Source: Sphingopyxis panaciterrae
Lineage (GTDB): Bacteria; Pseudomonadota; Alphaproteobacteria; Sphingomonadales; Sphingomonadaceae
DNA length: 64,000 nucleotides
Assembly: GCF_011762125.1 (NCBI RefSeq)
Contig: NZ_JAASQN010000006.1
Location: 221,001-285,000, forward strand
Direction: 5' to 3'
Of this stretch, positions 43,664 through 47,193 are shown piece after piece. Both the position numbers and the translations under genes were made by a program. The notes beneath the pieces were generated by a model. That model did not search any database. It was given only the letters and a program-made list of their open reading frames with translations, and was not told where the DNA came from. Numbering within the stretch: the first letter of the stretch is position 1; every line of letters starts with the position of its first letter.

Positions 43664-45253
43664 ATGGCCGAACCGACTAGCCAGCACGACGTCATCATCG
43701 TCGGCTCCGGCGCCGCGGGCCTCACCGCCGCGATCGCGCTCGCCGATCATTGCCGCGTGCTCGTGCTCGCGAAAGGTGAGCTGACCGGCGGGTCGACCGC
43801 CTGGGCGCAGGGCGGCATCGCCGCGGTGCTCGATGCCGGCGACACGTTCGAAAATCATATCGAGGATACGATGGTCGCGGGCGCCGGGCTCAACCGGCGC
43901 GAGACGGTCGAGTTCGTCGTCGAAAACGCCCCGCATGCGATTCTGCGGCTGATCGAGATGGGCGTGCCGTTCAACAAGGAAGCCGAGGCGCTCCACCTGA
44001 CGCGCGAGGGAGGCCATTCGCACCGCCGCATCGTGCATGTCGACGACGCGACCGGCTGGGCGGTGCAGGCGGCGCTATTGAAGACCGCCGAGGCGCATCG
44101 GAACATCACCCTGCTGCCCGGGCAGGCATGCATCGACCTGATCACCGGCCGCCACGAAGCGCGCTATTCGGGGTCGGGACGCGTCTGGGGCGTCTATGCG
44201 CTCGATGAAAAGACGGGCAAGGTCCACGCGCATGTCGGCCGCGCGACGATCCTTGCGAGCGGCGGGGCGGGACGCGTCTACCAATTTTCGACCGCGCCGC
44301 GCGGCGCGACCGGCGACGGCATCGCGATGGCGTGGCGCGCGGGGGCGCGGGTATCGAACATGGAAATGATGCAGTTCCACCCGACCTGCCTCTATAATCT
44401 CGACGTCAAGAATTTCCTGATCACCGAAGCGGTGCGCGGCGAGGGCGGCATCTTGAAGCACCCGGTTACCGGGCACCGCTATATGCCCGATTATGACGCG
44501 CGCGCCGAACTCGCACCGCGCGATGTCGTGGCGCGCGCGAACGACGATCAGATCAAGCGGTCGGGGCTCGACTATGTCCATCTCGACATCAGCGACAAGG
44601 ACCCCGATTTCGTCGCCGGGCATTTCCCGAACATCTATGAAAAGCTGCTGACGCTCGGCATCGATATGACCAAGGGGCCGATTCCGGTGGTGCCCGCGCA
44701 GCATTATACCTGCGGCGGGGTGCTGATCGACCTCGACGGACGTACTGACCTGCCCGGCCTCTATGCGGCGGGCGAATGCACCGAAAGCGGGCTCCACGGC
44801 GCGAACCGCCTCGCCTCCAATTCGCTGCTCGAATGCTTTGTTTTCGGCGAGGCGGCGGCGAAGGATATCATCGCGCGCTGGGACGAACTCGACACCCCGC
44901 CCGCGATCCGCCCGTGGGACGAAAGCCGCGTCACCGATTCGGACGAAGAGGTGGTGATCAAGCAGAACTGGACCGAAATCCGCCGCTTCATGTGGAATTA
45001 TGTCGGCATCGTGCGGACGACCAAGCGCCTTGAGCGCGCGCGGCATCGCATCGACATGATGACGCACGAAGTCGGCGACTATTACGGCCATTTCCGCGTG
45101 ACCACCGACCTGATCGAACTTCGCAACCTGCTGCAATGCGCCGAGCTGATCGTGCGCAGCGCGCTCCACCGCAAGGAAAGCCGCGGGCTGCACTATACGC
45201 TCGATTACCCCGAATTGCTGCCGCAAGCTGTCGATACGGTGCTGGTGCCGTGA
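43664..45253 (+). CDS. nadB: L-aspartate oxidase
   Basis: 529 residues. The FAD-binding motif IIVGSGAAGLTAAIALA is near the N-terminus. STAWAQGGIAAVLDAGDTFE, SGGAGRVYQFSTAPRGATGD and GGVLIDLDGRTDLPGLYAAG follow, ending in the helical C-domain RKESRGLHYTLDYP. It oxidises aspartate to iminoaspartate, the first step of de novo NAD synthesis. nadA and nadC are not in the window. GAGGGAAGGG directly precedes the ATG. Cytoplasmic flavoprotein. The succinate dehydrogenase flavoprotein is related but lacks this length and context. Confidence 0.95.
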   Translation: MAEPTSQHDVIIVGSGAAGLTAAIALADHCRVLVLAKGELTGGSTAWAQGGIAAVLDAGDTFENHIEDTMVAGAGLNRRETVEFVVENAPHAILRLIEMGVPFNKEAEALHLTREGGHSHRRIVHVDDATGWAVQAALLKTAEAHRNITLLPGQACIDLITGRHEARYSGSGRVWGVYALDEKTGKVHAHVGRATILASGGAGRVYQFSTAPRGATGDGIAMAWRAGARVSNMEMMQFHPTCLYNLDVKNFLITEAVRGEGGILKHPVTGHRYMPDYDARAELAPRDVVARANDDQIKRSGLDYVHLDISDKDPDFVAGHFPNIYEKLLTLGIDMTKGPIPVVPAQHYTCGGVLIDLDGRTDLPGLYAAGECTESGLHGANRLASNSLLECFVFGEAAAKDIIARWDELDTPPAIRPWDESRVTDSDEEVVIKQNWTEIRRFMWNYVGIVRTTKRLERARHRIDMMTHEVGDYYGHFRVTTDLIELRNLLQCAELIVRSALHRKESRGLHYTLDYPELLPQAVDTVLVP

Positions 45254-45270
45254 GGGTGATTTAGGAAAAC

Positions 45271-45296
45271 CTCACGCAAAGGCGCGAAGGCGCAAA
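45271..45296. repeat. Left 26-bp inverted-repeat arm flanking the GxxExxY gene
   Basis: The arm starts CTCACGCAAAGGCGC and contains the 8-bp unit GCAAAGGC-like repeated three times. It matches the reverse complement of 45710-45735 with a single mismatch (G for A at position 16). It begins 18 bp after the nadB stop and ends 15 bp before the GxxExxY start. Confidence 0.85.
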
Positions 45297-45311
45297 GAAG
45301 GGGACGCCGCG

Positions 45312-45695
45312 GTGAATATCGAAGACATTGCGCGCATCACCGTCGATTGCGGATTTCATCTTCACAAGAATCTCGGTCCGGGTTTGCTCGAATCGGTCTA
45401 TGAAGCCGTCATGGCTGACCAGCTGGCGCGGCGCGGACTATATGTCCAACGGCAAGCACCTATCGCGATCCACTATGATGGTATCGAGTTGCCAGAAGGC
45501 TTTCGAGCCGACTTGCTCGTCGAAGGGGCGTTGCTGATCGAACTGAAATCCGTGGAACGGCTTTCGCCGCTTCACGGCAAACAAGTCCTGACCTATCTTC
45601 GACTGCTTGATCTGCCCTTGGGCCTGCTGATCAATTTCGGCGGCGAAACATTTAAAGAAGGCGTCAAGCGCATCGTCAACAATCACCAAAATTGA
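45312..45695 (+). CDS. GxxExxY family protein (PD-(D/E)XK nuclease-like)
   Basis: 127 residues from a GTG at 45312. The name-giving motif GLLESVY is at 24-30 (Gly24, Glu27, Tyr30). A PD-(D/E)XK-like active site follows: Asp67 in FRADLLV and Glu77-x-Lys79 in LLIELKSVE, then Gln91-VLTY. The family is widely distributed and its function is unknown; nuclease activity is inferred. The gene is enclosed by a 26-bp inverted repeat (45271-45296, 45710-45735), which suggests a small mobile or self-contained unit inserted between nadB and the GlsB gene. Confidence 0.88.
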   Translation: MNIEDIARITVDCGFHLHKNLGPGLLESVYEAVMADQLARRGLYVQRQAPIAIHYDGIELPEGFRADLLVEGALLIELKSVERLSPLHGKQVLTYLRLLDLPLGLLINFGGETFKEGVKRIVNNHQN

Positions 45696-45709
45696 CTTCG
45701 CATCTTCTT

Positions 45710-45735
45710 TTTGCGCCTTTGCGCCTTTGCGTGAG
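45710..45735. repeat. Right 26-bp inverted-repeat arm flanking the GxxExxY gene
   Basis: Reverse complement of the left arm at 45271-45296 with 25 of 26 positions matching. It starts 15 bp after the stop codon, the same distance by which the left arm precedes the start codon. The arm is built from the 8-bp unit TTTGCGCC. It ends 10 bp before the GlsB gene stop. Confidence 0.85.
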
Positions 45736-45745
45736 ATAATCCTCC

Positions 45746-45991
45746 TTATCCGCCAACACCCAGCAGCCGCCCGACGAGGATCAGCACGATCGCACCGATC
45801 ACCGAGGCGAGACAGCCTGCGCGGTGAAAGTCGCCGCGGCCGCGCGAGGTGGCGAGGCCGGCGAGCAACGACCCGCCGATGCCGAGCAGGATCGTCGCGA
45901 CCCATCCCATCTCGACCGCACCCGGATAGAAGAAACGCGCCAGCGCGCCGATGATCAAGCCCGAAATGATCGCTCCGATGATGTTGATCAT
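45746..45991 (-). CDS. GlsB/YeaQ/YmgE family membrane protein
   Basis: 81 residues. Three hydrophobic helices are visible: residues 2-20 (IGAIISGLIIGALARFF), 27-47 (MGWVATILLGIGGSLLAGL) and 59-78 (ASVIGAIVLILVGRLLG), with the family's conserved glycines. Members are small transglycosylase-associated or stress-response inner-membrane proteins of uncertain function. The ATG overlaps the stop of the upstream M20 hydrolase by four bases, so the two are in one operon. Confidence 0.9.
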   Translation of the reverse strand: MINIIGAIISGLIIGALARFFYPGAVEMGWVATILLGIGGSLLAGLATSRGRGDFHRAGCLASVIGAIVLILVGRLLGVGG

Positions 45992-47193
45992 GCGTTGAAC
46001 CCCTCGTTCAAAAACCGTTCGGCCAGCGCCGCATGCAGCGCCGCACCGCGCGCCATCACGCTTTCATCGAGCACCATATGGTTGCTGTGCAGCCCGCAGC
46101 ACTGGCGCCAGTCGCTCCCCGCCTCGCTCGCGCCGAGCCAGAACATCGCGCCGGGGACTTTTTCGAGGACGTAGGAGAAATCCTCGGCGCCCATCACCGG
46201 ATTGTCCATCGTCAGCCACGCCGCCTCGCCGAAGGTCGCCTCGACCACCTCCTGACCAAAGGCGACCGCGCGGGCGTCGCAAATGGTGACCGGAAAGCCC
46301 TCGTCGATCGTCACGTCGGCGGCGCAGCCATGCGCCTCGGCGATCGCGGGGGCGAGACGTTTCAGTTCGCGCGCCACCATGGCCCGCCGTTCGGGCGACA
46401 GCGTGCGGATGGTACCGAGCATCTCGGCCGTTTCGGGAATGATGTTGTTCGTCGTTCCCGCCGCGATCTTGGCGATGGTGACGACCGCGGGGTCGAATAC
46501 CGAAATGCGGCGCGTCACCATCGTCTGGATCGCGGTGACGATCGCGCAGGCCACCGGGATCGGATCGATGCTGTCGTGCGGCATCGATGCATGGCCGCCC
46601 GCGCCCTTGACGGTAATCGACAGTACGTCGGACGAGGCGAGCAGCGGCCCCGCGCGCCCGGCAAAGATGCCGTGCGGCGCGTTGGGCATGATGTGGAGCG
46701 CAAAGGCCGCGTCGGGCAGCGGATCGATGATGCCGTCATCGAGCATGAAGCGCGCACCATGATGGCCTTCCTCGCCCGGCTGGAACATGAACATCACGGT
46801 CCCGGGCAGCCGGTCGCGGGCGGCGCACAGCAGCTTCGCCGCGCCGACGAGCATCGCGACATGCGTGTCATGCCCGCACGCGTGCATCGCGCCCGCCGTC
46901 TCGGAGGAGAAGTCGAGCCCGGTATCCTCGAGCAACGGCAGCGCATCCATGTCGCCGCGCAGCAGCACCGTGCGGCCATTGGCGGGCCCGCGCAAAATGG
47001 CAATCAGGCCCGTGGTCGACGGCCCCTCGCGAAATTCGAGCGGCAGACCGGCGAGCGCATCCTTGATCTTCGCAAGCGTCTTGGGATTCTGCAGCCCCAA
47101 TTCGGGCTCGCGGTGGATGGCCCGGCGGAGATCGACGAGGTCGTCGAGGAGGGTTTCGGCCGCGGCGGGCCAGCTATGTGATGGCGTGTCCAT
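45988..47193 (-). CDS. M20 family amidohydrolase (hippurate hydrolase-like)
   Basis: 401 residues from ATG 47193. Metal-binding motifs are CGHDTHVAM, the catalytic FQPGEEGHHGA, and late GAEDFSYVLEKVPG. The lid domain starts near SITVKGAGGHASMPHDSID. It matches the IAA-amino acid/N-acyl amino acid amidohydrolase group, which cleaves acylated amino acids. The substrate is not predictable. Cytoplasmic; no signal peptide. It overlaps the desaturase 3' end by 20 bp and the GlsB start by 4 bp, forming a three-gene minus-strand run. Confidence 0.93.
   Translation of the reverse strand: MDTPSHSWPAAAETLLDDLVDLRRAIHREPELGLQNPKTLAKIKDALAGLPLEFREGPSTTGLIAILRGPANGRTVLLRGDMDALPLLEDTGLDFSSETAGAMHACGHDTHVAMLVGAAKLLCAARDRLPGTVMFMFQPGEEGHHGARFMLDDGIIDPLPDAAFALHIMPNAPHGIFAGRAGPLLASSDVLSITVKGAGGHASMPHDSIDPIPVACAIVTAIQTMVTRRISVFDPAVVTIAKIAAGTTNNIIPETAEMLGTIRTLSPERRAMVARELKRLAPAIAEAHGCAADVTIDEGFPVTICDARAVAFGQEVVEATFGEAAWLTMDNPVMGAEDFSYVLEKVPGAMFWLGASEAGSDWRQCCGLHSNHMVLDESVMARGAALHAALAERFLNEGFNA

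Follow-up and report, generated by a model that had tools for sequence, protein, structure and literature searches.

A 465-bp unit beside nadB of Sphingopyxis panaciterrae is probably a minimal mobile element, in which one gene for a predicted PD-(D/E)XK nuclease of the GxxExxY family stands between inverted octamer arrays that would serve as its ends; from sequence comparison we give this reading a probability of about two in three. A minimal mobile unit, or a nuclease that works on its own ends, had been suggested in the original prediction, and the idea gains support from empty sites, from the generality of the arms in the gene family and from the co-variation of arms and protein. Elements with such arms and no gene are dispersed over genomes of the genus, and they are best read as miniature derivatives that may depend on the GxxExxY gene in an operation resembling that of RAYT and REPIN. 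The window, that is, the whole stretch of DNA that was analysed, comprises 64,000 nucleotides, and it contains the following features.

43664..45253, + strand: nadB (L-aspartate oxidase), left neighbour
45271..45296, + strand: left arm, array of an 8-bp unit (CGCAAAGG-like) with the outer tip CTCACGC
45312..45695, + strand: GxxExxY gene (TIGR04256 / PF13366 PDDEXK_3), GTG start, 127 aa
45381..45401, + strand: GxxExxY motif, residues G24-E27-Y30, invariant in a 27-sequence alignment
45510..45512, + strand: codon of Asp67, catalytic-type (alignment and PD-(D/E)XK-type fold in the model)
45540..45548, + strand: codons of Glu77-x-Lys79, PD-(D/E)XK site (alignment and fold in the model)
45710..45735, - strand: right arm, inverted copy of the left arm (25/26)
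45746..45991, - strand: small gene, right neighbour, convergent with nadB; sub-cut-off NF007771 match only

The unit and its protein

Rereading of the sequence agreed with the original prediction for the inverted arms, since the left arm (45271-45296) reads CTCACGCAAAGGCGCGAAGGCGCAAA and the reverse complement of 45710-45735 reads CTCACGCAAAGGCGCAAAGGCGCAAA, with one base differing (25/26). In a repeat search the inverted match extended to 45263-45296 / 45710-45743 (34 nt, 88%), and the tips read TCACGC / GGTTCACGC. The nadB stop codon precedes the extended inverted match by 9 nt and the 26-nt arm by 17 nt. Gaps of 15 bp between arms and gene had been claimed on both sides, which is right for the left one (45297-45311) and has to be corrected to 14 nt for the right one (45696-45709). 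The small convergent gene on the right is present, and its former name, GlsB, is backed only by the sub-cut-off match to NF007771. No ORF of at least 80 aa besides the GxxExxY gene lies wholly within the unit. A 15-base array pattern (up to 2 mismatches) matched five times in the window when 0.39 matches were expected, and none of 100 shuffles reached five; together with displaced control windows, described below, the shuffles rule out a chance inverted repeat.

The protein encoded in the window matched TIGR04256 (GxxExxY) with 129.5 bits (cut-off 35) and PF13366 (PDDEXK_3) with 127.2 bits (cut-off 22), the latter being its sole match at E<=0.001. D67, E77 and K79 are invariant across the 27-sequence alignment, which bears out the proposed PD-(D/E)XK site, and an AlphaFold model (pLDDT 95.6) shows a fold of the PD-(D/E)XK type. 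By its D...(E)xK site in a restriction-endonuclease-like fold, the modelled protein belongs to the PD-(D/E)XK superfamily and is predicted to be a nuclease. Foldseek returned no match at E<=0.001, and the search by sequence for a solved relative gave a single, unconvincing match at E 0.12. The gene is the sole TIGR04256 match in its own 4.84-Mb genome. PADLOC gave no match, and a defence gene was rejected on this ground. At the sensitivity used, the protein was nearly absent from plasmids (7/72,556 records) and was not found among 50,697 phage records. In several proteins of the family the array overlaps the reading frame and contributes residues to the protein, as an N-terminal HKDTKTQRK or a C-terminal HKPSASPRLRVN.

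Arms across the gene family

TIGR04256 was present in 40 of 80 genus genomes with 65 matches, and in some genomes as many as 4 copies of the gene occur. Each of the 65 places was fetched, giving 66 rows as one broken gene yields two. Strong inverted arms were defined by an inverted-repeat score >=14 in windows around start and stop, and displaced windows served as control. This score was reached in 62/66 rows and in 0/237 displaced controls, an octamer array was found on at least one side in 64/66 rows (control 0/237), and no row lacked both features. In a phylum sample of 30 fetched loci, corresponding to 31 rows, 3 of which were left out for short flanks, the score was >=14 in 17/28 rows (control 0/50), strict octamer arrays were found in only 4/28, and 8/28 lacked both features. 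Among named relatives we took the best 80 of at least 578 confirmed loci and left out 4 for short flanks. Strong inverted arms were found at 49/76 loci (control 2/355), a share that is not a census because these are the best 80 of at least 578, many come from sphingomonads and at least 4 repeat genus loci. Arrays occurred on at least one side in 64/76 (control 13/355), and neither feature in 8/76. These best 80 loci span Verrucomicrobia, Planctomycetes, Geobacter, Desulfobacteraceae and Cyanobacteria, and further include KSB1, Fermentibacteria, Lentisphaerae and Flavobacterium. At some loci (L239, L243, L264) the arrays are direct instead of inverted. Flanking arms are thus general for GxxExxY genes in the genus and common among these best-matching named relatives, and a unique local curiosity is ruled out by the many genomes in which family and arms were found.

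The co-variation of arms and protein that had been proposed as a check was also observed. For 60 elements (5/66 rows with proteins <110 aa and one element scoring 13 were left out), protein identity and arm similarity were correlated with a Mantel rho of 0.59 (p = 0.001). An element's arm was more similar to the one that accompanies the nearest protein of a different genome (0.96) than to arms of further elements in the same genome (0.68; n = 36, p = 2e-7). Left and right arms agreed at 0.96 within an element and at 0.70 between elements, a difference large enough to indicate that the arm pair is kept alike. At a site upstream of fabG (identified in L065), where two protein clades are found, arm similarity was 0.967 within a clade and 0.667 between clades, and when members of one clade were compared with one copy at fabG and one elsewhere it amounted to 0.964 (19 pairs). 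Therefore, arms go with the protein and not with the place. In the 20/20 genus elements labelled by site pattern at fabG, the gene is oriented like fabG, unlike the situation at nadB described below.

The same relation was found for the arms of whole genomes. Fourteen genomes with a CGCGGAG-arm gene were chosen by eye, 13 of which have at least 5 arms. In these 13, the median share of CGCGGAG among the arms was 64%, compared to 7% in the 22 genomes that also reach 5 arms and whose gene is of another variant (p = 1.7e-6), and after removal of the gene's own arms the shares were 62.5% and 8%. As a separate observation, both arms of a diverged element (L288 in G002) share the same odd bases, as if one had been copied from the other, which would fit concerted evolution of the two arms or their repair from a template.

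Gene-free elements, arm numbers and sites

A pair of 15-base units (up to 2 mismatches) matched 53 times in the genome from which the window comes, and 21 times when the reversed control was used. Ten matched loci and four further stretches were read. Complete gene-free elements are found, e.g., at C1:235338-235521, C6:123760-123904 and C6:172829-173037, with the outer tips TCTCACGC or TTTCACGC, and several of the weaker matches read are coding-like sequence and chance-like. Two divergent arm pairs, G000:C1:846711-846775 (L003) and G000:C10:47933-47996 (L019), are hairpins with tips that face each other across about 10 bp; L003 is located inside and L019 beside a GTCATTCCCGCG..CGGGAATGAC-type palindrome, which by eye resembles a CGTC-tagged REP (named as in PMC3733652). 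Nineteen convergent CGCGGAG elements from four genomes, picked for three units in both arms, measure 118-168 bp between array ends and show the majority terminus GGTTCACGCGGAG with A/T-rich bases outside. Inner GCCGCGAAGCGGC-like and GGGCC..GGCCC-like hairpins are common to only 10/19 of them (by eye). Arms of the CGCAGAG type directly adjoin 11/19 elements on one side or both (on both in 3), and the same was seen in 0/271 control windows. Read on the reverse strand, a gene-free element at the nadB site of G001 still codes for GVRRIANDHR, which resembles what the final codons of the gene encode; it is thus an internal-deletion derivative, the one clear case seen. No target-site duplication could be defined by eye at the nadB junctions, at the C6:172829-173037 site or in the 19 gene-free elements, the empty and filled pairs that were searched being diverged.

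With a strict three-unit pattern, 1486 arm matches were counted in the 80 genus genomes (21 for the reversed control). As there are 65 gene copies, most arm copies are located away from the gene, and the picture of the original prediction was too small. The median number of arms was 23.5 in the 40 genomes with the gene and 0 in the 40 without (p = 1e-10); at least 5 arms were found in 35/40 and 9/40, respectively, and the gene is present in 25 of the 26 genomes with at least 20 arms. Five genus genomes have the gene and fewer than 5 arms, and in two of them (G074 and G078), which have zero pattern matches, the arms read around the gene are of a kind or length missed by the pattern. Phylogenetic correction was performed with a rough tree from 342 nt of nadB in 70 genomes. 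Independent contrasts of gene and arms gave r = 0.62 (p = 1e-8), and r = 0.55 (p = 7e-7) once two arms had been subtracted for each copy of the gene. Among 35 disjoint closest pairs discordant for the gene, the carrier had more gene-free arms 30 times and fewer 5 times (p = 2e-5), and in the 29 nearest discordant pairs 24 times and 5 times.

Among 299 phylum-wide genomes (one sub-cut-off match was scored as no gene) the odds ratio was 18, with 34 genomes having both, 23 the gene only, 18 arms only and 224 neither; for comparison, the family TIGR02436 gave an odds ratio of 2.2 (p = 0.04) in the same genomes. In the 225 genomes outside family f28, 12 had the gene, 10 had arms and 6 had both (p = 1e-6). 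Within f28 (74 genomes; 28 both, 17 gene only, 14 arms only, 15 neither) the gene was not associated with the strict 8-bp pattern (p = 0.34), which is a weak point and not a clean negative, as the arms read in this family have a looser spacing that is missed by the pattern.

By itself, the correlation of gene and arms fits a mobiliser and a cargo of an unseen enzyme alike and cannot separate the two. We consider it unlikely that the GxxExxY gene is cargo and that all array-ended elements owe their spread to an unseen transposase or recombination process. Such a process would account for the large excess of arm matches over gene copies and for the nine genomes that hold at least 5 arms in the absence of the gene. 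Also, a Y1 transposase domain correlates with arms over all 80 genomes: 13/15 genomes with Y1 have at least 5 arms (odds ratio 7.1, p = 0.008), and five genomes with Y1 and no GxxExxY gene have 1, 3, 5, 15 and 19 arms, most genomes with neither having 0. However, genomes with the gene did not differ in arm number by the presence of Y1 (median 21 vs 25.5, p = 0.52) and the genome from which the window comes has no Y1 (PF01797) match, and on these two grounds a RAYT was rejected as the hidden mobiliser. Against cargo also stand the tracking of the protein clade by the repeat variant and the lack of another ORF of at least 80 aa wholly inside the unit.

Arms co-vary with the protein and arm copy number goes with the gene, and we infer from this that the protein is the agent of the spread. 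In the scheme that we propose, which is inferred at every step beyond these two observations, the protein would recognise and bind its own array variant and would cut or nick at the element ends, perhaps at arm hairpins or cruciforms. PD-(D/E)XK nucleases make no covalent protein-DNA link. Joining would for this reason be left to host processes, and repair, gene conversion or template switching by the host might copy or relocate the segment between two arrays. The protein would act in cis on its own gene and in trans on gene-free elements with matching arms.

Sites in several states were found in relatives. Seventy nadB 3' junctions were fetched and scanned out of 80 genomes. Twenty of the 70 were clean and empty, with nadB abutting the small gene in 16 and next to an amidohydrolase gene in 4, so it is not the case that all relatives carry the gene at this place. 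In 12/70 the gene is present between arms, one being broken (G018), 4/70 have gene-free elements and 34/70 other or unresolved sequence. In G018 (L070), between nadB and the amidohydrolase gene, two elements flank one small gene, and the GxxExxY gene on the nadB side is broken (internal stop, split). The gene is oriented along nadB in 8 cases and reversed in 4, and both orientations occur within protein clades (G067 reversed, G000/G019 not; G013 reversed, G037 not). The C6:172829-173037 site was filled in 13 of 30 loci fetched, empty in 15 and occupied by other arms in 2; at least 9/13 filled sites are nested, with a CACAAAG-type-arm element inside a CGCAAAG-type-arm element (by eye). Many copies occupy a few recurrent sites, which is also expected from homologous exchange at pre-existing arms, and the insertions compared are old, as the genus genomes are one per species.

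That the same few sites are filled or empty, that both orientations occur at nadB and that the model has a PD-(D/E)XK fold would suit a homing-type selfish gene, whose nuclease cuts element-free sites and which is copied in by repair. This explanation overlaps in part with the preferred one. It leaves dispersed gene-free elements at many sites unexpected, and the conserved part is the arms and not the flanks; we regard it as improbable. Recurrent sites, the near absence from plasmids and phages, the odd bases shared by the arms of L288 and the position of both studied sites between apparently convergent gene ends would agree with arms that are a domesticated or regulatory structure, such as an RNA hairpin or bidirectional terminator, at which the nuclease processes RNA or DNA, the spread being passive via homologous recombination and gene conversion. 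However, one protein clade has the same arms at different sites (19 pairs), elements are nested against arms of others as described above (11/19), and no Rfam family was found at gathering score within 45000-46000, and we regard this explanation as improbable, too.

Relation to known systems

In one open-access library of papers, no description of this arrangement of gene and arrays and none of four repeat strings was found. GxxExxY is given passing mention in PMC8934634 and also occurs in PMC12085832, and multicopy repeats of Geobacter (PMC2700814) were dismissed as a prior description, as the accessible text of that paper does not mention the arrays. If the preferred reading is true, the GxxExxY family, widespread with at least 578 confirmed loci, gains a function as the enzyme of a miniature element family; the gene-free copies would make up a large class of repeats between genes, of which we found no description in that library. 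A stand-alone PD-(D/E)XK nuclease would then drive the mobile system, and the code that links protein to repeat would be readable.

With regard to a DDE insertion sequence, the sole protein of the unit matched PF13366 alone, and the diverged site pairs gave no definable duplication. A 23S rRNA intervening sequence, in which a TIGR02436 protein is encoded within a helix of the rRNA, was rejected because the protein belongs to TIGR04256 and not to TIGR02436, and the site is beside nadB. Bacterial MITEs are likewise short non-autonomous inverted-repeat elements, and the derivative in G001 holds the gene's last codons. MITEs are usually taken as insertion-sequence descendants. In contrast, no transposase-like parent was found for the gene-free elements described here. 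In Alphaproteobacteria CGTC repeats are the prevailing kind, apparently with no transposase dedicated to them (PMC3733652); these and the GTAG-tagged REPs are abundant palindromic repeats as in the present case, and they differ in sequence. Rpn proteins (YhgA-like, PF04754) are PD-(D/E)XK nucleases. They are described as promoting recombination that does not require RecA, and one paralogue is suggested to have inserted twice, independently, at a single locus (PMC5350276). The nuclease class is common to them and, by prediction, to the GxxExxY protein. However, the protein in the window matches PF13366 only, with no match to the Rpn/Transposase_31 model (PF04754) at E<=0.001, and the accessible part of PMC5350276 describes neither terminal arrays nor gene-free partners for Rpn.

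A parallel was found at stand-alone genes for the four-helix-bundle family TIGR02436. In a single set of 30 fetched loci with no displaced controls (L323 was read out of frame), the inverted score was >=14 in 15/30. Octamer arrays were present at 0/30, so the arms are not generic luggage of any small selfish gene; the inverted arrays there consist of a 7-bp unit (GTAGGCA, GTAGTGA, GTGAGGA and GAATGGC types; L312, L314, L324, L333, L335, L337 and L338). That another small family has a different array also argues against the GxxExxY gene being cargo. We tentatively propose, at somewhat less than an even chance, that elements made of a single gene with array ends form a so far unrecognised class of bacterial mobile DNA over many phyla, in which lone non-transposase proteins would read a short tandem code at the ends, GxxExxY proteins an octamer (CRCNRAGN), mobilising large numbers of gene-free elements in trans, and TIGR02436 proteins a heptamer, as a second, unrelated lineage.

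The closest resemblance is to RAYT/REPIN, in which a single gene lies near a repeat whose inverted doublets, lacking the gene, are scattered over other places; the diversity of repeat and protein was ascribed to co-evolution, and action in trans was proposed and left unproven there (PMC3116915). Similarly, the GxxExxY gene is flanked by a dispersed repeat, with gene-free inverted doublets elsewhere. However, the protein is of the PD-(D/E)XK type and not a Y1/HUH transposase, a domain that was absent from the window's protein (profile search, E<=0.001) and from the whole genome; the ends are octamer arrays with no GTAG tag, in contrast to GTAG-tagged palindromes (PMC3733652), and up to 4 GxxExxY copies occur per genome, compared to the single copy of each RAYT (PMC3116915). 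RAYT/REPIN is the nearest functional analogue of the system described here, which by its enzyme and by its lack of the GTAG tag stands outside that group.
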